This document shows, piece after piece, positions 3,759 through 15,028 of a DNA stretch of 64,000 bases. Under the pieces are notes generated by a model that worked only from the letters and a program-made list of their open reading frames with translations, made no database searches and was not told the origin of the DNA. Source of the stretch: Streptomyces sp. NBC_01591 (GTDB taxonomy: Bacteria; Actinomycetota; Actinomycetes; Streptomycetales; Streptomycetaceae); contig NZ_CP109327.1 of NCBI RefSeq assembly GCF_035918155.1, positions 1,674,001 through 1,738,000 of the forward strand. Direction: 5' to 3'. Position 1 is the stretch's first letter, and each line of letters begins with the position of its first letter. A program made the translations under genes and the position numbers.

Positions 3759-4691
3759 CTAGAAGCAGTCGCCGTACCAGTGGACCGCGCCGGGTGCCGT
3801 GACCGTGGCGCGCACGGCTTCCGCGGTGGCGTGCAGCGGGCGTGCCATACCCACGTGCTCCGCCACCTGCCGGGCGCCCGCCAGCAGGACCGGCAGCGCG
3901 GCGCGGACCCCGGGGCCGTCGGGGAGCCGGACCCGGGCCCGGCCCATGCCCGCCGCCCGGCCCCGTTCGCCGACGGCGGCGAACAGCTCGCCCAGGCACT
4001 CGGGGGCGCCCGCGAATTCGCGTACCTCCACGCACTCCCCTTCGTGCTGGGCCACCATCCAGCCGACGAGCGCCCCCGACCCGGGGTCCTCGGCCACGAG
4101 CGACCGGTCGGGGGGGCCGTACCAGGCGGGCACGCGCACCGCCCAGTCCTCCGGCGCCCGCAACGAGCTGAGCGGCCGGTCCGCGTTGTACGCGTGGTGC
4201 AGCGCGGCCACCTCCGCGGCGTCCTGCGCGGTGGCCTCACGGATCCGGAACTCCCCGGCAGCGGGCGAGGGCGCGAGCGTCCCCTCGGTGTACGTGCCGG
4301 CGAACTCCTGCCATCCCGAGCCCCGGTAGACGCCCGGTGTCCCGGTGAACAGCAGCGACCAGGCGCACTGTTCGGCCGTCATGGTGCGCTCCGCCGCCAC
4401 CAGCAGCCGCCGCACCAGCCCCTGGCCCCGGGCCTCGGGTCGGGTGGCGACGCTGCCGATGCCGCCGACCCGCTGCGGGGTGCCGGCCGCGTCGCGGATC
4501 AGCCTCGGTACGTAGACGACGACCGCGTCGATCCCGTCCCCCGCGGCGTTCTGCGCGATGAAGGTGTGCCGGTGGCGGTCCGGGTCGAGGGCGTGCAGGG
4601 CGGCGATCTGCGGGGCGTCGAAGCACCGCTGCCACAGGGCGGCCAGGGCCGGGTCGTCGGCCGCCGTCGCGGTCCGGATGACGGCTGTCAC
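3759..4691 (-). CDS. GNAT-family N-acetyltransferase
   Basis: A 310-residue acetyltransferase. The acetyl-CoA motif is visible near residues 85-105 as IGSVATRPEARGQGLVRRLL (V-x-P-x-x-R-x-x-G-x-G/A), preceded by a short N-terminal GNAT region. The longer C-terminal half resembles Eis-like two-domain GNATs but is shorter than their roughly 400 residues. The GTG start at 4691 overlaps the stop of the upstream beta-helix gene by four bases (GTGA), so it is translationally coupled as the last gene of the minus-strand arm. The substrate is unknown. Confidence 0.85.
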   Translation of the reverse strand: MTAVIRTATAADDPALAALWQRCFDAPQIAALHALDPDRHRHTFIAQNAAGDGIDAVVVYVPRLIRDAAGTPQRVGGIGSVATRPEARGQGLVRRLLVAAERTMTAEQCAWSLLFTGTPGVYRGSGWQEFAGTYTEGTLAPSPAAGEFRIREATAQDAAEVAALHHAYNADRPLSSLRAPEDWAVRVPAWYGPPDRSLVAEDPGSGALVGWMVAQHEGECVEVREFAGAPECLGELFAAVGERGRAAGMGRARVRLPDGPGVRAALPVLLAGARQVAEHVGMARPLHATAEAVRATVTAPGAVHWYGDCF

Positions 4692-6847
4692 AGGGTCAGG
4701 TTCCCGTCCGTGCGCACCTTGTCGCCGTTCGCGGGCATGGCGCTGCGCTTCGTTCCGTCCTCCACGCACGAGGTGTGCAGGACGGAGTCCAGGGCGTCGG
4801 GGGCGAGGTGGAGCGTGCCGCCGGTGAAGCGGCTTCCGGTGGCCGCGTAGTGGTTGGTGCCCTCGGCGACGCGGACATGGGCGGTGTCCGGTCCGGAGGC
4901 GGCGCTGCTGAGTCCGGTGATGTCCCAGGTGACCTTCCCGGCGCCGGCCGCACGGCCGAGCAGCGCCTTGGCCTTGTTGCTTCCGGTGAGGCGGGCGCCG
5001 CCGGTGACGGTGATCCGCTGGTCGCGCACGGCGCTGAGCTCGATGCCGGTGTTGTCGTAACTGCCGCCGTCGATCCGCAGATCCGCCGAGCCGACCGAGA
5101 GCGGGGCCGCGTTCTCGGCGCCGGTGACGGTGCAGTCGGTGAAGTGGACGGGCCCTGCCCCACGCAGGATCGCGCCGTCGACGCCCTTGAACGTGCAGCG
5201 TACGAAGTGCACGGGCGCGGTGACCGGGGTCTGGACGAGGACGGCACCGGCGGGCGGCTCGAAGGAGCAGTCGCTGATGGTGGTCGGCCGGGTGGAGCGG
5301 GCGGAGCGCTGGGCGACGGCGAAGGTCTTCGCCGTGCAGCCGCGCACCTGGGCGCCGTCGGCGTTGACGGTGAGGGTGCCGGCCTGGTCGAAGGTGGGGC
5401 GCGCGATCACCGTGATGTCTTCGAGGGTCAGATCGGTGATCTTGGTATTGGCGGTGAACCAGGAGCAGACATGTCTGCGTACGGTGATCCGCTTGGCGGA
5501 AATCCCCCACTGGGCCCCGGAGTTGGCGATGTCCATCAGCCCGGAGTTGCCGTCGAAGAGCAGGTCGTGCTCGTACTGCCCGTGCGTCGTGAAGGGGTTC
5601 CCGCCCGCGTCGTCACCGTCGCCGTGGCAGTTCACCACGGTGCAGTAGGCGGAGGCGGTGAGGTCGTTGAGGTGGCGTACGTTGCTGGTCGTACAGTCCG
5701 CGACCCGTCCGTACAGGCAGTAGATCTGCTGGGTGAGATAGCCCGCGCCCCCGTACTCGACGGTGGGCGGGTTCTTCAGCGAGCACTCCTCGGTACGGAA
5801 GCGGGTGCACCAGCGGCGCATGATGACCGGCCAGAAGGACCCGGTGGCGTGGATCCCGGAGACGTCGCAGCCCACGGCGTACTCGAAGCTGACGGGGTGG
5901 GATCCGGTGTACTCGTCGGGGCCGGCGCCCTCGAAGACCATGTTGCGGATGTGGGTGTTGTGGACCGGTTCGATGCGGGTCCAGGTGAGCTTGCGGCCCG
6001 CGGCGAGTTCCCAGCCGTTGAGGTAGCCGATCCGGATGTGTCCCGCGTCGACGATCTCGGTGATCTCGACCAGCTTCTGCAGTTCACGTTCGTCACCGCC
6101 GCCGCCCGCGACCGGGTCGACCTGCACGGCCCACCACTGACCGACCTCGAACGCCTTGGCGTCGGGGACCGGGAAGGTGTCGGTGAGCTCGATGACCTTG
6201 CCGGAGAGCGCATGTCTGACGGTGGTGTCGGTGACGGTGCCGCGGAAGGAGAGGACGGCGCCGAAGGGGTTGTCGTGGGTGTTCTTCTCGATGCCTTCGG
6301 TGCGTATGCGGTGGCCGCCGAAGTCGAGTTCGATGTTCGAGCGGTTCCAGAGGTGGCGTTTGGTGAACAGGAGGTCGGTGTGGGCCTCGATGCGGTGGAC
6401 GCTCTTGTCGGCGATCATCGCGTCGAGGGCGGCGTCGGCGGGGGTCTTCGCGTCGAAGTGGCCGAAGGTGCGGAAGTCGAGGGTGCCGGTGTGGAGCTGG
6501 TGCCAGCGGCCGGTGCCGTTCTTGGCGGGGGCGATGACGGTGCCGCCGTTGTGGGCGGCTTCGGACTTCTTGTCCCAGCGCACGGTCATGGCGCCGCCGT
6601 CGCCGGGGGCGTGGTAGCCGGCGGTCAGGACCTGGGTGCCGTCGTCGAGGGGCTTGGTGTTCAGCGCGCGCAGTGCGGCGACCGTGTCGACGCGGAGCAC
6701 GTCGCCCGTGTGCGAGGGCGCGGCCTGTGCCTGGCCGGCGGCCACGGCCGAACCGGCCATGACCAGACCGGCCAGACCCGAAGCCCGCAGCAGATTCCGG
6801 CGGGACGAAACGGAGGATGGAGCGGGGGACGAAGCATTGACGGACAT
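4688..6847 (-). CDS. Tat-exported right-handed beta-helix protein, copy A
   Basis: A 719-residue secreted protein. Residues about 16-45 carry a twin-arginine signal (SSRRNLLRASGLAGLVMAG) ending near AQAAPS. The body shows short strand repeats typical of pectate-lyase-like parallel beta-helices (HIRNMVFEG, CDVSGIHATG, CSLKNPPTVEYGG, DCTTSNVRHLN, DCSFEPP). The start at 6847 has GAGGAG upstream. It is probably a polysaccharide lyase, hydrolase or binding protein acting outside the cell, but no catalytic residues can be assigned. A paralogue sits at 12751-14901 on the other strand. Codons for about residues 13-210 match it almost base for base, while the rest is only about 60-65% identical by eye. 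Confidence 0.85.
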   Translation of the reverse strand: MSVNASSPAPSSVSSRRNLLRASGLAGLVMAGSAVAAGQAQAAPSHTGDVLRVDTVAALRALNTKPLDDGTQVLTAGYHAPGDGGAMTVRWDKKSEAAHNGGTVIAPAKNGTGRWHQLHTGTLDFRTFGHFDAKTPADAALDAMIADKSVHRIEAHTDLLFTKRHLWNRSNIELDFGGHRIRTEGIEKNTHDNPFGAVLSFRGTVTDTTVRHALSGKVIELTDTFPVPDAKAFEVGQWWAVQVDPVAGGGGDERELQKLVEITEIVDAGHIRIGYLNGWELAAGRKLTWTRIEPVHNTHIRNMVFEGAGPDEYTGSHPVSFEYAVGCDVSGIHATGSFWPVIMRRWCTRFRTEECSLKNPPTVEYGGAGYLTQQIYCLYGRVADCTTSNVRHLNDLTASAYCTVVNCHGDGDDAGGNPFTTHGQYEHDLLFDGNSGLMDIANSGAQWGISAKRITVRRHVCSWFTANTKITDLTLEDITVIARPTFDQAGTLTVNADGAQVRGCTAKTFAVAQRSARSTRPTTISDCSFEPPAGAVLVQTPVTAPVHFVRCTFKGVDGAILRGAGPVHFTDCTVTGAENAAPLSVGSADLRIDGGSYDNTGIELSAVRDQRITVTGGARLTGSNKAKALLGRAAGAGKVTWDITGLSSAASGPDTAHVRVAEGTNHYAATGSRFTGGTLHLAPDALDSVLHTSCVEDGTKRSAMPANGDKVRTDGNLTL
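6218..6809 (-). repeat. 592-bp inverted repeat, left copy (5' part of beta-helix gene A)
   Basis: The reverse complement of this stretch matches 12780-13371. Reading both copies against each other I found one mismatch, an A-to-G in the Thr/Ala codon after GGCGCCATG. Identity stops abruptly at both ends, in the codons before the twin-arginine motif and in the ACCGTC codons. Confidence 0.9.
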
Positions 6848-6911
6848 GACGGAGGCGCTCCTCGCGTTGTCGATGCGTGCTCGGTGGGAACCGACTGCCG
6901 GTCGGTCGCGG

Positions 6912-7751
6912 TCAGATCGTGTTGCGGTACGGCGGCATGAAGCGCATACGCGGCATCTGGTCGGCCAGCACTCCCCCGTCGACGACGATGCGCGCCCCGG
7001 TGAGATACGCCCCGGCGTCCGAGGCGAGCAGCAGCAGCGCACCGACGCATTCGTCGGGCTGCGCGTACCTGCCGAGCGGGATGCGCTCGCGGTACGCGGA
7101 TTCGAAGGCCCCCCGGTCGAAGGGGAACTCGCCGTCGATCGGGGTCTCGACCATGCCGGGAGCAAGGGTGTTGGCGGTGATGCCGTGCGGGGCGAGTTCG
7201 ACCGCCAGGGTCTCGGTGAGCAGTTGGGCGGCGGCCTTGGAGGCGTTGTAGTGGGCCAGGCCGGCCTCCGCCACCAGTGCGTTCTTCGAGGTGATGGTGA
7301 TGATGCGGCCCGCGACCGCGTCCGCCGTCATGTGCTCGGCGATGCGCTGGCTGAGGAAGAAGACGGCGTCGACATTGACCCGCATGATGTGCGACCAGCT
7401 CGCGGGGGTGATCTCGTTGAAGCGTTCCAGCGCCGCCGTGCCCGCGTTGTTGACCAGGATGTGCAGCGGACCGGCCTCGGCGCGTACGGCGTCGACGAAG
7501 CCGGGCAGCGCGTCGATGTCCGCGAGATCCTGTCCGTACGTCCGGCAGTTGCGGCCGAGTGCCTCGATCGCCGCAGCGGTCTCGGCGACGCCCTCGGCAC
7601 CGGGCAGGTCGACCAGGACCAGATCGGCGCCCGCCTCGGCGAGGCCGACGGCGAAGGACCGGCCGAGGCCCCGGGCGGCCCCGGTCACGACCGCGGTGCG
7701 GCCGGTCAGATCGAAGCGGTCGGTTCCGCGGGGCGGGACGGCTGCGGTCAT
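6912..7751 (-). CDS. SDR-family NAD(P)-dependent oxidoreductase (sugar-acid type)
   Basis: A 279-residue classical short-chain dehydrogenase. TGAARGLG at 23-30 binds the cofactor, D48 in VLVDLP suggests NAD preference, NNAG is at 101-104, and Y168/K172 form the YxxxK active site; the length is typical. The ATG at 7751 has GGAGGA upstream; the open frame continues further 5' but is repeat-rich and not protein-like. It lies between an amidohydrolase and a beta-helix protein on the same strand. By context it probably oxidises a 2-keto-3-deoxy sugar acid or a related hydroxy acid, as in non-phosphorylative fucose/rhamnose routes; the substrate is inference. Confidence 0.9.
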   Translation of the reverse strand: MTAAVPPRGTDRFDLTGRTAVVTGAARGLGRSFAVGLAEAGADLVLVDLPGAEGVAETAAAIEALGRNCRTYGQDLADIDALPGFVDAVRAEAGPLHILVNNAGTAALERFNEITPASWSHIMRVNVDAVFFLSQRIAEHMTADAVAGRIITITSKNALVAEAGLAHYNASKAAAQLLTETLAVELAPHGITANTLAPGMVETPIDGEFPFDRGAFESAYRERIPLGRYAQPDECVGALLLLASDAGAYLTGARIVVDGGVLADQMPRMRFMPPYRNTI

Positions 7752-7767
7752 GGCGGGGGTTCCTCCA

Positions 7768-7868
7768 GGCGGAGAGGTACGGAAAGGCGGAGAGGTACGG
7801 AGGCGGAGGGGGTGGGGTGGGTCGGGTCCGGTCCTGATCGCCGGAGAGGTCCGGTCCTGATCGCCGGA
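7768..7868. repeat. Two short direct repeats between the SDR and amidohydrolase genes
   Basis: GGCGGAGAGGTACGGA occurs at 7768-7783 and 7786-7801 (period 18). GTCCGGTCCTGATCGCCGGA occurs at 7826-7845 and 7849-7868 (period 23). They fill much of the otherwise gene-free stretch 7752-7990. No terminator or promoter is obvious there. Confidence 0.8.
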
Positions 7869-7990
7869 AGGGTCCGGGCCGCCGCGCAGGGACACATGGG
7901 TGGTGGCGCGGCGGCCCGGCTGCCGGTCGGTACCGGGGGACAGGGGGATGACCCCGGCGCCGTACCGGCAGGTTCGGGGGAACGGCCGGG

Positions 7991-8836
7991 TCAGCCGTTC
8001 AGGCCCAGCAGGTCCAGCGACGGGCGGTGGATGATCTCCTCCACCGCGTCCACGTCGAGCGGCGGCAGTCCGGGGATGCCGGGGATACGGGCGATCTCCC
8101 GCAGTCCCTTCACCGAGTCGTCGACCGTCGTGAACGGGTAGTCGCTGCCGAACATCAGCTTGTGGAAGACCCCGTAGTCCTGGACCAGCCGGAGGCTGTG
8201 CCAGAGCTGGAAGGGCCGGTAGTGCAGGGCGCTGATGTCCGCGTACACATGCGGGTGCTTACGGATGACCGCGATGCACTCGCCCTCGAAGGGGTGGCCG
8301 AGGTGGGCGAGGACCATCCGCAGTTCGGGATGACGGATGGCGACGGCGTCCAGGTGGCGGGGCATCGCCCACTCCAGCGGTGCGCTCGACACGAAGGTGG
8401 TGCCGGTGTGCACGAGGAGCGGGAGTCCGTGCCGTTCGGCGTACGTGTACAGCTCGTCGTACTCCTCGGCGGCCGGATCGAAGCCCGCGTACATCGGCAT
8501 CAGCTTGATGCCGCGCAGGCCCAGTTCCTGGTGGCCGTAGCGGAGTTCTTCCTGCCAGCCGGGCTGGGTCGGGTCCAGGGACAGGTAGCCGATCAGCCGG
8601 TCGGGGTGCTGTCCGGCGTACGAGGCGACGGCGGCGTCGTCGACCCAGAGGCCGCTGCGCCGCGCCTTGCCGCCGACGACGATCGTGCGGGTGCCCTCGG
8701 GTGCGGTGGCGGCGTACTCCTCCCACTTCACCGTGAGGTCGACCTCGCCCGCGTGGGCGCGGGCGGAGTCGGACTTGAACGGGTCGGTGAAGTCGTGGCT
8801 GTGCCGGAAGAGGTGCGAGTGGACGTCGACGATCAT
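7991..8836 (-). CDS. Amidohydrolase family 2 protein (metal-dependent hydrolase, possible lactonase)
   Basis: A 281-residue TIM-barrel amidohydrolase of the pfam04909 type. Metal ligands appear as DVHSH (H6, H8), LVHTG near 140, LAHLGHP near 180, and the terminal Asp in FGSDYPF. Members act as sugar lactonases (for example L-fuconolactonase) or decarboxylases. The neighbouring acid-sugar dehydratase and SDR favour lactone hydrolysis feeding the dehydratase, but that is inference. The ATG at 8836 overlaps the dehydratase stop by four bases (ATGA), so the two are translationally coupled. Confidence 0.85.
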   Translation of the reverse strand: MIVDVHSHLFRHSHDFTDPFKSDSARAHAGEVDLTVKWEEYAATAPEGTRTIVVGGKARRSGLWVDDAAVASYAGQHPDRLIGYLSLDPTQPGWQEELRYGHQELGLRGIKLMPMYAGFDPAAEEYDELYTYAERHGLPLLVHTGTTFVSSAPLEWAMPRHLDAVAIRHPELRMVLAHLGHPFEGECIAVIRKHPHVYADISALHYRPFQLWHSLRLVQDYGVFHKLMFGSDYPFTTVDDSVKGLREIARIPGIPGLPPLDVDAVEEIIHRPSLDLLGLNG

Positions 8837-10020
8837 GTCCGGTTCCGCTTCTCCCAGCCGTCCGCGAACATGTTCCAGAAGCGGTGGCTGGGCGGGTGTT
8901 CCTCGAAGACCTCGTCGACGAGCTCGACGCCGAGACCCGGTGCGGTCGGCAGGCCGATGCGGCCGTCGACGACCGGGAGGGTGCCCTTGAGCGCGTCGAA
9001 GACGTAGTCCTCGAGGAGTCCGTCGAAGGTTTCGAGGATCTTGAAGTTGGGGATTCCGAGCGTCGCGTGCACCGAGACGGTGGTGCAGAGCGGCGAGTTC
9101 GAGTTGTGCGGGGCCACGAGCATGCCATGGGTATCGGCGATCGCGGCGAGTTTCCTGACCTCGGTGAAACCGCCGGCCATGGAGAGGTCGGGCTGGATGA
9201 TGTCGACCGCGTTGGTGGCGAAGAGCTGCTTGTACTCGTAGCGGTTGTGGAAGTGCTCGCCGCCGGAGATCGGGAACGCCGCGCGCTGGCGCAGTTCCGC
9301 GTAGCGCTCGATGTGGGTCCACGGCATCGGCTCCTCGAACCAGCCGATGTCGAAGGGTTCCAGCTCCCGCACCAGCCGGGCCGCGGTCGGCATGGCGAAC
9401 CGGGCGTGGCCCTCGATGAAGAGGTCGACGTCCGGTCCGATGGCCTCGCGGACGGCGGCCACGAGGTCGACGGAGCGGCGCAGTTCGGCGCGCTCCAGCT
9501 CGTGCAGGCCGGGGCCGAACGGGTCGAACTTGAGGGCGGTGAAGCCCTTCGCCACGGTCTCCTTCGCCTTGGCCGCGAAGGTCTCGGGCTCGCGCTCGCC
9601 GGTGTACCAGCCGTTGGCGTACACGCGTACGTCGTCCCGGCAGGCGCCACCGGTCAGCCGGTAGGCGGGGACGCCGAGCGCCTTGCCCATCAGGTCGTAC
9701 ATGGCCTGGTCGAGGCCGGACAGGGCGATGCCGCCCATGTCGCCGCCGCGCAGGAAGTCGCCCTGGTAGACGCGGAGCCAGAGCTCCTCGATGTCGAAGG
9801 GGTCGGCGCCGATGAGGTGGCGCTGTGCCAGTGCCTCGGTGAGTGCGCAGACCTCGCGGACCCGGTAGGGGTGGGTGATCTCGCCGATGCCGGACAGGCC
9901 CTCGTCGGTGTGGACCCGGACGTAGCCGAAGTCGCGCCAGGAGGTGCCGAGCATCAGTGTCTCGACGCGGGTGATCCGGCCTGCGGGGCCCGCCGGGCGG
10001 GTGCGGTTGACGGTGAGCAT
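8833..10020 (-). CDS. Enolase-superfamily acid-sugar dehydratase (galactonate/mannonate dehydratase-like)
   Basis: A 395-residue protein with the MR/MLE two-domain fold. Candidate residues are K164 and D166 (LKFDPFG), E203-x-H205 (FIEGHARF), E229 (WFEEP), E255 (SGGEHF) and H305 (VAPHNSNSP). The acid-x-His pair plus the late His is the pattern of D-galactonate and D-mannonate dehydratases, which remove water from aldonic acids to give 2-keto-3-deoxy acids. The start at 10020 shares one base with the aminotransferase stop. With the lactonase-like, SDR, DapA-like and FAH proteins it suggests a non-phosphorylative sugar-acid pathway. The exact sugar is unknown. Confidence 0.9.
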   Translation of the reverse strand: MLTVNRTRPAGPAGRITRVETLMLGTSWRDFGYVRVHTDEGLSGIGEITHPYRVREVCALTEALAQRHLIGADPFDIEELWLRVYQGDFLRGGDMGGIALSGLDQAMYDLMGKALGVPAYRLTGGACRDDVRVYANGWYTGEREPETFAAKAKETVAKGFTALKFDPFGPGLHELERAELRRSVDLVAAVREAIGPDVDLFIEGHARFAMPTAARLVRELEPFDIGWFEEPMPWTHIERYAELRQRAAFPISGGEHFHNRYEYKQLFATNAVDIIQPDLSMAGGFTEVRKLAAIADTHGMLVAPHNSNSPLCTTVSVHATLGIPNFKILETFDGLLEDYVFDALKGTLPVVDGRIGLPTAPGLGVELVDEVFEEHPPSHRFWNMFADGWEKRNRT

Positions 10021-11390
10021 CAGCGGGTCGCCCCGCCCATGGTGGAGGTGTTCTCCAGGTCGTCGGCGCCGCCGTCGGCGAGCACGGCCTTGACCGCGGC
10101 CTCGGTGCCCTCGATGAGACGGTCCACGTCGGCGTCGGTGTGGGCGTAGCTGATGTGGCTGCGCTTGAGGTTGAGCGGCAGCTCGAACAGGCCGTGGTCG
10201 AGGAGCTTGCGGCGGTAGCCGACGAACAGCGAGGCGTCGTTGTTCAGCAGGTCCGCGTAGGTGCGGGGGGCCTCGCCCGGCATGAAGTAGCTGACGAAGA
10301 CGGAGCCGTAGCCGGTGACGACTGCGGGGACGCCGAGGCGCTCGTACAGCCCGGTCAGTTCGGTGCGGACGCGCTCGCCGAGCCGGAAGACGTGCTCGTG
10401 GACCGGCTCCTCGCGCAGCTTGCGCAGGGTGGCGAGGGCGGCGGCGACGACGGACGGGTGGCCGTTGTACGTGCCGGCGAAGAAGGCGGGGGCGCCGGGG
10501 CGGGTGGAGAAGAGGTCCATCAGGTCGGCGCGGCCGCCGATCGCGCCGACGGGGGCGCCGTTGGCGATCGCCTTGCCGAGGGTGGTGAGGTCGGGCGTGA
10601 CGCCGGAGATCTTCTGCCAGCCGCCGATGTCGTGGCGGAAGCCGGTGATGACCTCGTCGAAGATCAGGATGCTGCCGGCCTTCGTGGTCTCCTCGCGCAG
10701 CGTGGTGAGGAACTCCTGGTACGGCAGGAGCGCGCCGACGTTGTGCGGGACGGGCTCGACGATGACGGCGGCGATGTCGGAGCCGTGCTCGGCGAAGGTG
10801 CGGCGGACGGCCTCGCTGTCGTTGAACGGCAGGACGAGGGTGGCTTCGAGGACCTCGGGGAGGATGCCGGTGGAGATGGGGTCGTGGCCGCCGACCTTCT
10901 CGGGCGCGGAGATGACGTTGAGGCTGACGGCGTCGTGCCAGCCGTGGTAGCAGCCCTGGAACTTGACGACCAGGCGGCGGCCGGTGGCGGCGCGGGAAAC
11001 GCGCAGCGCGTGGAACGTGGCCTCGCTGCCGGTGCTGGTGAGCAGCACCTTCTCGATGGAGGGGATCAGCTCGGTGAGCTGTTCGGCGAGGAGGACCTCG
11101 CCCTCGGTGACACCGACGCCCATGTGGCCGAGGGTGGCGCCGGCCTCCGCGGTGGCGCGGGCCACGTCGGGGTCGTTGTGGCCGAGCAGGGGCGGGCCGA
11201 ACGCCGAGTGGAAGTCGGTGTACTCGCGTCCGTCGGCGGTACGGAACCGTGCGCCGTCCGTCCCCGTGACAACCAGGTCGGTCAGTCCGGGAACGCTGCG
11301 CTGACCGCTGTTCACGCCGCCGGGTACGACCTGGCGGGCGCGCTCGGCGAGTCGGGCTCCGGATTCGTTGCCCACCGGGCCTGAACTCAT
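10020..11390 (-). CDS. Class III PLP-dependent aminotransferase (glutamate-1-semialdehyde aminomutase-like)
   Basis: A 456-residue fold-type I enzyme. D245 in IFDEVITGFR contacts the PLP pyridine nitrogen and K273 in LTTLGKAIANG is the Schiff-base lysine; GSEATFHALR near 121-130 is the phosphate-binding region. It resembles HemL but is not the haem enzyme by context. It leads the minus-strand catabolic arm and directly precedes the dehydratase. AAGGAG lies nine bases before the ATG at 11390. A palindromic operator about 150 bp upstream suggests control by the adjacent IclR regulator. It may transfer amino groups on an amino-sugar acid or keto acid; the substrate is unknown. Confidence 0.88.
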   Translation of the reverse strand: MSSGPVGNESGARLAERARQVVPGGVNSGQRSVPGLTDLVVTGTDGARFRTADGREYTDFHSAFGPPLLGHNDPDVARATAEAGATLGHMGVGVTEGEVLLAEQLTELIPSIEKVLLTSTGSEATFHALRVSRAATGRRLVVKFQGCYHGWHDAVSLNVISAPEKVGGHDPISTGILPEVLEATLVLPFNDSEAVRRTFAEHGSDIAAVIVEPVPHNVGALLPYQEFLTTLREETTKAGSILIFDEVITGFRHDIGGWQKISGVTPDLTTLGKAIANGAPVGAIGGRADLMDLFSTRPGAPAFFAGTYNGHPSVVAAALATLRKLREEPVHEHVFRLGERVRTELTGLYERLGVPAVVTGYGSVFVSYFMPGEAPRTYADLLNNDASLFVGYRRKLLDHGLFELPLNLKRSHISYAHTDADVDRLIEGTEAAVKAVLADGGADDLENTSTMGGATR

Positions 11391-11536
11391 AATCGCTTGC
11401 TCCTTGCGTCGAGAGTCGTCGGTCTTCGCAGGCCCTGCCCGGCCCGTGAATCCCTGGCGCCATCCGCCCGGCAGTCGCCGCAGGAATGAGGATGATCCGT
11501 GGTGCTTGAGGTGGTGCGTTTCGCTTTTTCTGAACG

Positions 11537-11557
11537 CTGTTCTGTAGAGCAGAACAG
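11537..11557. promoter_or_regulatory. IclR operator 1 (CTGTTC-N9-GAACAG)
   Basis: A palindrome with 8-bp arms (CTGTTCTG / CAGAACAG) in the divergent region between the aminotransferase and iclR genes. The core CTGTTC-N9-GAACAG recurs with identical spacing at 11675-11695. It is probably the IclR-family dimer site controlling the minus-strand arm. Confidence 0.7.
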
Positions 11558-11674
11558 TGCCTGGATATTACGTGCGGCTCCAGGGCCGGTCAAGACCTTT
11601 CCGAACCCAGGAAGGCCCGATTCCGCGCTTTCTTCACAGAGAAAGCGCGTTCGGGCCTCCCCCGAGGCACTACG

Positions 11675-11695
11675 CTGTTCTGCTATGACGAACAG
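11675..11695. promoter_or_regulatory. IclR operator 2, overlapping the iclR start codon
   Basis: CTGTTC, 9 bp, GAACAG, with the ATG of the regulator inside the 9-bp spacer. Same sequence and spacing as the upstream palindrome, implying autoregulation by occupancy of the translation start region. The close upstream position also suggests a leaderless or very short-leader transcript. Confidence 0.65.
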
Positions 11696-12542
11696 TGCTG
11701 CCCCAGAAGAACCGAAGTACTGGGTCAAGAGCGTGGCCAGGGCAGCGGACATCCTCGAGGCGCTCGCCGCCCCCGCACAGGGGAACGGCCTGAGCGTCAC
11801 GGAGGTCGGCCAGGCCTGCTCCATCTCCAAGAGCGCCGCCTTCGGCATGCTCCAGACCCTGCGTGCCTACGGCCTCGTCTCGGACGACGGCGAGGGCATG
11901 AACCGCCGCTACCGGCTCGGCATGAGCCTGGCCAGGCTCGGCGACCGGGCGCGCTCCCAGGTGTCCCTGCGCGGGGTCGCCCACCCGGTCCTGCGCGAGC
12001 TGACCCGGGCCACCGGAATGGCGTCCAGGCTCGCCGTGCCCGAGGACGGCCATGCAGTCGTCGTGGACCAGGTCGAGCTCGACCAGCGCGTCCGGCTCGA
12101 TCTGCGGATGGGGCAGCGCGAGCTGCCGCACTGCACAGGCCTGGGCAAGGCGCTGCTCTCCGCCGTGCCGCCGAGCGAGGCGGCCGCGGTCGTCGAGCGG
12201 TTCGGGCTGCCCCGGCGCACCTCCCGCACGATCACCGACCCGGCGACCTTCCTGTCGCATCTGCGCGACATAGCCCGGGTCGGCTACGCCCTGGACGACG
12301 AGGAGGACGCCGAGGGCATCATCTGCATCGGCGCGCCGGTCTTCGACGACCGTTCGGTGTGCGCCGGGGCCGTCTCCATCACCGGCCTCAAGCTCGGCCT
12401 GCCGGCCTGGCGCTACCAGGAACTGGGCGGCCAGGTACGGGACGCGGCCCGCCGGATCAGCGTCTCGCTCGGCTGGGTCGACGACTCGGACGGCACCACT
12501 TCCGACACCGACACGTCGCATTCCGACGAATTCGGGTCTTGA
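11685..12542 (+). CDS. IclR-family transcriptional regulator of the sugar-acid locus
   Basis: A 285-residue regulator with an N-terminal winged helix (about residues 12-75: SVARAADILEAL, LSVTEVGQACSISKSAAFGMLQ) and a C-terminal effector domain (DLRMGQRELPHCTGLGKALL, GIICIGAPVFDDRSVCAGAVSITG). The ATG at 11685 was chosen because homology begins there and the longer frame is not protein-like. It diverges from the catabolic operon and precedes the second beta-helix gene on its own strand. Two identical palindromes flank its promoter, one over its start codon. The effector is likely a pathway intermediate; it could activate or repress. Confidence 0.9.
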   Translation: MTNSAAPEEPKYWVKSVARAADILEALAAPAQGNGLSVTEVGQACSISKSAAFGMLQTLRAYGLVSDDGEGMNRRYRLGMSLARLGDRARSQVSLRGVAHPVLRELTRATGMASRLAVPEDGHAVVVDQVELDQRVRLDLRMGQRELPHCTGLGKALLSAVPPSEAAAVVERFGLPRRTSRTITDPATFLSHLRDIARVGYALDDEEDAEGIICIGAPVFDDRSVCAGAVSITGLKLGLPAWRYQELGGQVRDAARRISVSLGWVDDSDGTTSDTDTSHSDEFGS

Positions 12543-12750
12543 CCAAACGGCGTAACCCGCCGTAGGTTCCCTGCCAACCGCGGTGACACTCCATGGTCAC
12601 CGGCGTTTTACCCTTTCCGGCCTGGTTCCGGCGCCTGCCCATCGCGCTGTGAACATCCGACGGCCGGACCCTTTTCAGCCATCCGCCTCATGGCAGTCCC
12701 CCGCAGGAACGCTCCCTCACTTATCGCACTTCTCGGAAGGCGAAGTCCGC

Positions 12751-14901
12751 ATGAGCGTTCCGCACCACCACACCTCCGCTTCGTCCCGCCGGAATCTGCT
12801 GCGGGCTTCGGGTCTGGCCGGTCTGGTCATGGCCGGTTCGGCCGTGGCCGCCGGCCAGGCACAGGCCGCGCCCTCGCACACGGGCGACGTGCTCCGCGTC
12901 GACACGGTCGCCGCACTGCGCGCGCTGAACACCAAGCCCCTCGACGACGGCACCCAGGTCCTGACCGCCGGCTACCACGCCCCCGGCGACGGCGGCGCCA
13001 TGGCCGTGCGCTGGGACAAGAAGTCCGAAGCCGCCCACAACGGCGGCACCGTCATCGCCCCCGCCAAGAACGGCACCGGCCGCTGGCACCAGCTCCACAC
13101 CGGCACCCTCGACTTCCGCACCTTCGGCCACTTCGACGCGAAGACCCCCGCCGACGCCGCCCTCGACGCGATGATCGCCGACAAGAGCGTCCACCGCATC
13201 GAGGCCCACACCGACCTCCTGTTCACCAAACGCCACCTCTGGAACCGCTCGAACATCGAACTCGACTTCGGCGGCCACCGCATACGCACCGAAGGCATCG
13301 AGAAGAACACCCACGACAACCCCTTCGGCGCCGTCCTCTCCTTCCGCGGCACCGTCACCGACACCACCGTCGAGCACACCCTGAGCACGGCGATGCCGGA
13401 CCTCTCGGACCTCTTCGAGGTCGGCGACTCCTCGAAGTTCGCCGTCGGCCAGTGGTGGGCCGTGGAGATCAACGCCCTGGCGGGCAAGTACGAGAAGGAG
13501 ATCCAGCGTCTCGTCCAGGTCACCGATGTCGTCGACTCGACGCACATCCGGGTCAACTACCAGATCGGCTGGGACCTGGCCGCGGGCCGCAAGCTGAGCT
13601 GGACCCGCATCGAGCCCGTCGACCGCGCCCACGTCCGCAACATGGTCTTCGAGGGCTGGGGCGAGGACGAGATGACCGGCTCGCACCCGGTCGCGTACGA
13701 GTACGCGGTGCGCTGCGACGTCTCCGGGATCGAGGCCATCGGCACCTTCTGGCCCGTGGTGATGCGCCGCTGGTGCACGTACTACCGCACCGAGCAGTGC
13801 TCGCTGACCAACCCGAAGTCCGTCACCTACGGCGGCGCGGGCTACCTCACCCAGCAGATCTACTGCCTGTACGGGCACGTGGAGGACTGTCACACCTCCA
13901 ACGCCCGTCATCTCAACGACTTCACGGCCTCCGCCTACTGCTACGTCACCAACTGCCACGGCGACGGTGACGACGAGGGCCCGTTCGTCACGCACGGCCA
14001 GTTCGAGCACGACCTCGTCTACACCGGCAACTCCGGCCTGATGACCTTCGCCAACTCCGGTGCCGCCTGGGGCGGCAGGGCCAAGCGGATCACCGTACGC
14101 CGGCACGCCTGCTCCTGGTTCGTCGCCCGGGTCAAGATCACCGATCTGACCCTGGAAGACGTCCTGGTCATCGGCAAGAAGTCGCTGGCCGGCTCCGGAA
14201 TGCTCTGGGTCAACGCCGACGGTGTGCAGATGCGCGGCTGTACGGCCACGGGTCCGCTGATCGTCTCCCGGGCCTCGGACCTCTCCGCCCGCCCCAATGT
14301 GATCGCCGACTCCTCGTTCGCGTTCGCGGCGGGCGCGGAGATCACCCAGGCCAATGTCACCGCCCCGCTCACCCTTCAGCGCTCCACTCTGAAGGGCGTC
14401 GACGGCGCGGTGTTCAACGGCACGGGCCCGCTCACCCTGGACCAGTGCACGCTGACCGGTTCCAAGGACACCGCCCCGGTCTCGCTCGCGCACGCCGACA
14501 TCACCGTGCTGGGCGGCGAACTCCGCGACACCGGGCTGAAGTTGACCTCGGCGAAGGACCAGCGGCTGCGCGTCGACGGCACACGTCTGAACGGCACCAA
14601 CAAGGACGGCGCCCTGCTCGCCCGTACCGGCTCCGGACGGACCGTCGACTGGCAGCTCACCGGCCTCGACTCGACCGCGCCCAAGGGCACCGCCCATGTG
14701 CTGGTCACCGAGGGCCCCAACCGCTACCGGGCCACCGGCTCCACCTTCACCGGCGGCCGGCTCGAACTGCGGCCCGCGGCGTTCGGCGGCACCTCCAGCC
14801 ATCTGCTGCACACCGGCTGCGTCGAGGACGGCACCGAGCGCACCGCGCTGCCGGACGAGGGCGACCGTGTCGCCCACACCGCGGCCACGCTGCGGTTCTG
14901 A
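12751..14901 (+). CDS. Tat-exported right-handed beta-helix protein, copy B
   Basis: A 716-residue paralogue of the protein at 4688-6847, with the same twin-arginine signal (SSRRNLLRASG) and the same chain of short beta-helix strands (HVRNMVFEGWG, CDVSGIEAIG, GGAGYLTQQIYCLYG). Sequence after about residue 207 differs substantially from copy A, so the two probably act on different linkages or substrates. The ATG at 12751 follows GGAAGG. It heads the plus-strand arm that continues into the oxidoreductase and ABC importer. Function outside the cell on a polysaccharide is inferred from export signal, fold and context; no active site can be named. Confidence 0.85.
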   Translation: MSVPHHHTSASSRRNLLRASGLAGLVMAGSAVAAGQAQAAPSHTGDVLRVDTVAALRALNTKPLDDGTQVLTAGYHAPGDGGAMAVRWDKKSEAAHNGGTVIAPAKNGTGRWHQLHTGTLDFRTFGHFDAKTPADAALDAMIADKSVHRIEAHTDLLFTKRHLWNRSNIELDFGGHRIRTEGIEKNTHDNPFGAVLSFRGTVTDTTVEHTLSTAMPDLSDLFEVGDSSKFAVGQWWAVEINALAGKYEKEIQRLVQVTDVVDSTHIRVNYQIGWDLAAGRKLSWTRIEPVDRAHVRNMVFEGWGEDEMTGSHPVAYEYAVRCDVSGIEAIGTFWPVVMRRWCTYYRTEQCSLTNPKSVTYGGAGYLTQQIYCLYGHVEDCHTSNARHLNDFTASAYCYVTNCHGDGDDEGPFVTHGQFEHDLVYTGNSGLMTFANSGAAWGGRAKRITVRRHACSWFVARVKITDLTLEDVLVIGKKSLAGSGMLWVNADGVQMRGCTATGPLIVSRASDLSARPNVIADSSFAFAAGAEITQANVTAPLTLQRSTLKGVDGAVFNGTGPLTLDQCTLTGSKDTAPVSLAHADITVLGGELRDTGLKLTSAKDQRLRVDGTRLNGTNKDGALLARTGSGRTVDWQLTGLDSTAPKGTAHVLVTEGPNRYRATGSTFTGGRLELRPAAFGGTSSHLLHTGCVEDGTERTALPDEGDRVAHTAATLRF
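12780..13371 (+). repeat. 592-bp inverted repeat, right copy (5' part of beta-helix gene B)
   Basis: Matches the reverse complement of 6218-6809 with one mismatch by my reading. The inner edges of the two copies are 5,970 bp apart and enclose the SDR, amidohydrolase, dehydratase, aminotransferase and iclR genes. Confidence 0.9.
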
Positions 14902-14905
14902 CCGT

Positions 14906-15003
14906 GGGGCCTCTCGTTTGGATCAGGCCGGGCTCGCGGGGTCCGGCACGCACGCTCGCCGCGTTGTCCTCCCTGATCCGGCCTGATCCGAACGAAAGAC
15001 CCC
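14906..15003. terminator. 98-bp imperfect palindrome after beta-helix gene B
   Basis: The outer arms are 26 nt: GGGGCCTCTCGTTTGGATCA... at the left and ...TGATCCGAACGAAAGACCCC at 14978-15003, pairing with three mismatches around a 45-nt loop. It fills most of the gap to the next gene. It could terminate or stabilise transcripts; it also has the look of a repeated intergenic element. Confidence 0.65.
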
Positions 15004-15028
15004 AACCCATCGAGTACCAGGGATTCCC

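Follow-up and report, generated by a model that had tools for sequence, protein, structure and literature searches.

How can two neighboring paralogous genes remain nearly identical over one third of their length and stay clearly distinct over the remainder, and does the inverted repeat that they form act as a switch? This question is raised by a window of 64,000 nucleotides from the genome of Streptomyces sp. NBC_01591, which contains the oppositely oriented genes A and B. Gene A (4688..6847, minus strand) lies behind an SDR oxidoreductase gene and encodes a 719-aa protein that the open reading frame, an AlphaFold2 model and structure matches identify as a tailspike-like right-handed beta-helix protein with a Tat-type signal. 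Gene B (12751..14901, plus strand) lies behind an IclR-family regulator gene and encodes a 716-aa paralogue, recognized from its open reading frame, from the shared block and from a C-terminal part 60% identical to that of A, close to the 60-65% that a preliminary description had estimated by eye. That description had also reported reverse-complementary 592-bp blocks with one mismatch, and alignment of 6218-6809 with the reverse complement of 12780-13371 gives exactly 1 mismatch in 592 bases (window positions 6586 and 13003).

Ungapped extension with a repeat finder lengthened the arms to 599 nt with a spacing of 5956 nt. Together with the alignment and the tract-end analysis below, this defines a homogenized block in A (6218..6816, minus strand, from the Tat motif to codon 210) and its inverted counterpart in B (12773..13371, plus strand). 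The edges are sharp: on either side, identity declines from near 100% to some 45-60% over a distance of one or two bins of 50-75 bases. The block forms the 5' third of both genes, from the Tat motif SSRRNLL through FRGTVTDTTV. Each gene keeps its own start codon and some 10-13 initial codons ahead of the block. The earlier proposal that inversion would exchange signal-peptide codons needs correction, as most of the Tat signal is within the block. Beyond the block, protein comparison, trees and dN delimit the diverged C parts of A (4691..6217, minus strand) and B (13372..14898, plus strand). Searches of the genome found two copies of the block only (DNA search at E <= 0.001; 163-aa protein search at E <= 0.01). 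A diversity-generating retroelement was considered and rejected, as no third block copy was found at these thresholds and all RVT_1 matches lie outside the window.

Both proteins appear to belong to a known structural class. The AlphaFold2 monomer model of A (pLDDT 86.8) matches K1 capsule lyase, tailspikes and other beta-helix enzymes, and it has both the region before the helix and the right-handed beta-helix fold that mark the tailspike-like class; by modeled fold, A and B are tailspike-like beta-helix enzymes. The neck-like domain followed by a beta-helix is common to phage tailspike depolymerases, K1 lyase and Pantoea WceF, the last of which also carries a Tat signal as A and B do, although the identity in these structure matches is only about 10-14%. 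Unlike the phage tailspike systems, the A/B locus looks like one for uptake and catabolism, with trimer and activity being predicted properties. Neither protein matched Pfam or NCBIfam at 1e-3, and PF27114 was found for this family solely as a precomputed label. Public records name the family 'peptidase C14'; fold and neighbors indicate polysaccharide-active beta-helix enzymes instead.

To place the pair in a wider context, we examined overlapping samples of genus, family and class genomes, each of which includes the window's own genome; the C part of A was present in 14 of 392, 20 of 394 and 7 of 394 genomes, respectively. A scan of named genomes confirmed 158 relatives, from which the best 80 of 158, in 72 loci, were used. 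We hand-picked 53 pieces carrying both genes (the window and 52 loci), and removal of L109 for its Ns left 52 including the window; genomes with A and B on separate contigs and L086, where A is cut short, were left unpaired. The exact run in L047 consists of Ns and was excluded. For the count by orientation, 26 duplicate loci were set aside. In the window's family A and B are inverted, with A at the far end of the catabolic genes. Outside it the two genes stand in tandem behind IclR (Micromonospora, Nonomuraea, Microbispora, Microtetraspora and others; L062, L067, L070, L073, L123 and others). Since the order of A and B differs between inverted and tandem loci, a relocation must have occurred.

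An unbiased count of conversion comes from comparing identity within and between genomes over all 52 loci. In 19 of 52 loci, three of them narrowly (L074, L089 and L105, at 73-77% identity), the blocks of A and B resembled each other more than either resembled its counterpart at another locus; for the C part this held in 0 of 52. Among the 33 loci where the block did not behave in this way, some apparently have an earlier or incomplete conversion in common with near relatives, and others show none. L131, L132 and the Cellulosimicrobium loci combine high block identity with near relatives in the set, and the loci without conversion include Microbacterium, L034, L054 and L127-L130. Trees gave a similar result. 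In the tree of the block, A pairs with the B of its own genome in 20 of 52 loci (with support of 0.65 for L074 and no printed value for L125), and in the C tree such sister pairs occur in 0 of 52, an A clade being split from a B clade. Since the C tree separates A from B and the block tree pairs them, the gene pair is old and its block has been overwritten many times. The preliminary description, which spoke of recent conversion or ongoing recombination, was right and understated the case, as the process recurs in many lineages.

The extent of conversion differs among loci and is not universal across lineages. Among the 21 inverted loci, the blocks of A and B reach an identity of 88.5% or more in 15, reach 97.0% or more in 8 and stay below 75% in 6, which include L034 and L054, also from Streptomyces; among the 21 tandem loci the corresponding counts are 2, 0 and 7. 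Block identity is 57-64% in ten Microbacterium loci; identity between the C parts is 60-75% in the aligned loci. Direct tandem pairs are converted too, with block identities of 94% in Microtetraspora L062, 95% in Microbispora L123 and 88% in Actinoallomurus L073. For codon-level analysis we used 13 Streptomyces loci that had been selected for visible conversion, leaving out L034 and L054. In this set, third codon positions of the block have a mean identity of 96% within a genome versus 78% between loci. Judged from these sequences, every tip of the 13-locus group has undergone at least one overwriting of the block. In the converted loci the paralogues are thus closer within a genome than orthologues are between species, synonymous sites included, and the unconverted C part and constant neighbors place the duplication before the species split, which is the pattern of concerted evolution. 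We therefore consider it highly probable (about 0.92) that A and B are an old exported pair whose 5' third is recurrently overwritten by gene conversion, mostly without crossover, while the C parts stay distinct.

Purifying selection on protein and codons could in principle keep the blocks identical without recombination, and parts of the block are indeed codon-identical between species. We regard this explanation as having a nearly negligible probability, because in protein comparisons between species the block ranks with the least conserved parts and yet is near identical within many genomes. Among 11 Streptomyces loci (NG86), block dN is 0.139 for A and 0.147 for B, compared with 0.025-0.031 for the core and 0.016-0.067 for seven neighboring genes; the tail of A, at 0.137, is about as high as the block. 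The preliminary description had allowed that constraint extending to synonymous sites might account for the identity, and the contrast at third positions given above argues against it. Synonymous constraint, suggested by runs of invariant codons, was also rejected because the block does not stand out in dS, its value of 0.255 falling inside the range of 0.19-0.355 spanned by the seven neighbors. The last 30 block codons (6218-6307, codons 181-210 of A) have a dS of 0.07-0.09, below that range. Diversifying selection, hinted at by NG86 dN/dS of about 0.55-0.65 in the block versus 0.08 in the core, was likewise dropped: a home-made codon-frequency model (13 loci, FastTree topology, one scale factor for branch lengths) gave 0.063 versus 0.017 with no gain from M1a to M2a, and the site test supported no positive selection in the block of these 13 loci. 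Shuffling within the block across species was dropped as well, since the PHI test was not significant (p 0.14). Our claim is limited to weaker constraint on the block, and a tolerant domain in which conversion is harmless is the simplest account.

Independent recent duplication, or an assembly collapse that re-used one arm, would also yield near-identical arms. Drafts do break here, with 12 of the 72 loci from the best 80 of 158 relatives beginning mid-gene at a contig end, and assembly error could mimic block identity in single genomes. Such an origin is nevertheless extremely unlikely as a general explanation, given that the C parts form two old clades over 52 loci and that the arms carry a few lineage-specific differences (none in L125) on contigs of 2.7-9.7 Mb.

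The preliminary description had further proposed an invertible segment, in which frequent recombination between the facing repeats would invert the intervening 6 kb and exchange the promoters of A and B. The geometry is suitable, as the arms face each other, are near-identical and are 6 kb apart, and inversion by homologous recombination needs no site-specific recombinase. The gene content between the arms is as first described, comprising the SDR gene (6912..7895), an amidohydrolase gene (PF04909; 7994..8902), an MR_MLE-type sugar-acid dehydratase gene (8836..9993) and a class III aminotransferase gene (10020..11390), all on the minus strand, and the IclR regulator gene (11499..12542, plus strand), as assigned by domain and neighbor annotation. 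However, the junctions in assembled genomes argue against frequent flipping: the C part of A adjoins SDR in 27 loci and that of B adjoins IclR in 31, whereas B adjoins SDR in 0. Eleven loci with A beside IclR have the tandem order of other genera and are not flips. Uninformative for this count were 38 A and 16 B copies with no such neighbor within 2.3 kb (contig end or another gene). Both junctions are spanned in 23 loci, among which L109 has Ns in the block and L034 a run of Ns somewhere in the locus. No flipped locus was found among the informative ones, and gene order was constant. Within the window there was no match to resolvase or tyrosine recombinase (PF00239 and PF00589, the two families searched), all matches lying elsewhere in the genome. 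Conversion in direct tandem pairs and the different settings of the two genes also weigh against the proposal. The leader of B is conserved, with 143 of 256 columns of its alignment unchanged in 11 Streptomyces loci, and upstream of A conservation is largely confined to the end of SDR and the start region (90 of 362 columns in an alignment of Streptomyces loci). A flip would exchange these leader settings, which is a possible reason for the lack of flipped forms.

Experimental systems provide a quantitative expectation. In the available part of PMC8262849, 5 of 59 selected recombination events (8%) between inverted copies or cassettes in Salmonella were inversions, so that conversion without inversion is usual there. 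The same partial source gives inversion in up to a quarter of recombinants for inverted tuf genes, and an excerpt of PMC5485169 gives almost half for tuf at one position. With one conversion in each of 13 lineages, simple arithmetic puts the probability of seeing no inversion at 0.34 for a rate of 8%, 0.02 for 25% and 0.0001 for almost half. These values reject an equal mix of orientations. Occasional inversion may occur and be rare or counter-selected; an expression switch by frequent inversion, for which the locus offers no support, is very unlikely.

The ends of the converted tracts provide insight into how recurrent conversion might operate. The 15 inverted loci whose blocks are at least 88.5% identical all have the 3' edge of the high-identity segment at codons 207-214; the 5' start of the segment lies at codon 14-20 in 10 of 15 and at 50-76 in 5 of 15. 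The segment of L116 contains 64 mismatches or gaps. Tandem loci with a clear tract end earlier, for example at codons 187-188 in L062, L073, L084 and L123. At codons 211-240 and 241-270, A and B are strongly diverged (dN about 0.5), which suggests a sequence barrier to conversion. Selection that keeps the catalytic parts different would have the same effect, and either of the two may predominate.

On the favored reading, the split between A and B, both coding for exported beta-helix proteins, predates the divergence of the actinobacterial lineages sampled. The 5' third, comprising the Tat signal, the neck-like domain and the first beta strands, has been copied repeatedly from one gene onto the other through ectopic homologous recombination, in most cases without crossover and probably by a RecA-type non-crossover mechanism. 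Tracts halt at the strongly diverged stretch from codon 211, where an insertion begins and beyond which the C parts differ, and the barrier and selection on the catalytic parts would together exclude conversion from the C part.

Conversion might also be favored because A and B need matching neck domains, as in mixed trimers or with a common partner. The block evolves fast between species and is nevertheless matched in many genomes, and in the available part of PMC7949094 the related enzyme WceF is trimeric and its versions lacking N-terminal domains are insoluble or aggregate. The CEACAM paired receptors provide a comparable pattern in the accessible portion of PMC5112662, with conversion limited to the N domain of oppositely oriented paralogues and the rest different, as in A and B. 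However, CEACAM proteins are vertebrate receptors under diversifying selection, whereas no positive selection was detected here. Several lineages also retain both genes with unmatched blocks, and a neutral account suffices. We therefore consider a requirement for matched domains possible but doubtful. If it were true, conversion would update the fast-changing neck domains of both enzymes at once, as a bacterial counterpart of the vertebrate paired receptors.

As recurrent conversion, the A/B block is a segment-limited case of a known process. Recurrent prokaryotic concerted evolution (tuf, psbA/psbD, fla and others) likewise involves paralogues in fixed places that are closer within a genome in many lineages, and PMC6053082, in the part available, terms long-lasting cases in bacteria rare. 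A and B differ from those genes in that just one third is homogenized and the remainder forms two old clades. No gene of the A/B type is named among the 26 concerted-evolution genes in the running text of that source, tables aside, and topic searches of the literature returned no paper that we recognized as describing this locus. In Helicobacter pylori, babA and babB undergo segmental exchange and differ in the remainder. That exchange is tied to antigenic variation of an adhesin, whereas A and B are an enzyme-like exported pair of soil bacteria in which the N part only is involved. In each converted lineage one segment is homogenized up to nearly the same codons and the remainder keeps two old identities. 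Because converted and unconverted lineages coexist, as do inverted and direct arrangements, the factors that initiate, end and maintain conversion can be studied. Phylogenies based on the 5' portion of genes like these may mislead and should be treated with caution.

Conversion also offers an explanation for draft contig breaks and for 'partial' database entries at these genes. The 12 loci that start inside a gene (L040, L044, L046, L048, L050, L051, L052, L057, L063, L066, L071 and L088) do so at query residue 82-215, and three further loci of the 72 start at residues 12-54, also at a contig end. Among the matches listed, 11 of 120 homologues are named 'partial'.

From the families of its genes, the locus likely serves extracellular polysaccharide breakdown followed by uptake and catabolism. 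The leader of B (12679..12750, plus strand; alignment of 11 Streptomyces loci) and a similar motif ahead of iclR (11460-11487), a gapped variant spotted by eye, form a candidate IclR operator. The leader pattern occurs once within the window; genome-wide, with up to 3 mismatches, it gave 19 sites versus 18 for a backward control, and no regulon is indicated. No Rfam match reached the gathering score between 4000 and 18000. A 23-bp tandem repeat is present at 7825-7870, at the 5' end of the SDR reading frame, and an imperfect inverted repeat with 27-nt arms at 14905-15004, between gene B and a Gfo/Idh gene, is possibly a terminator.
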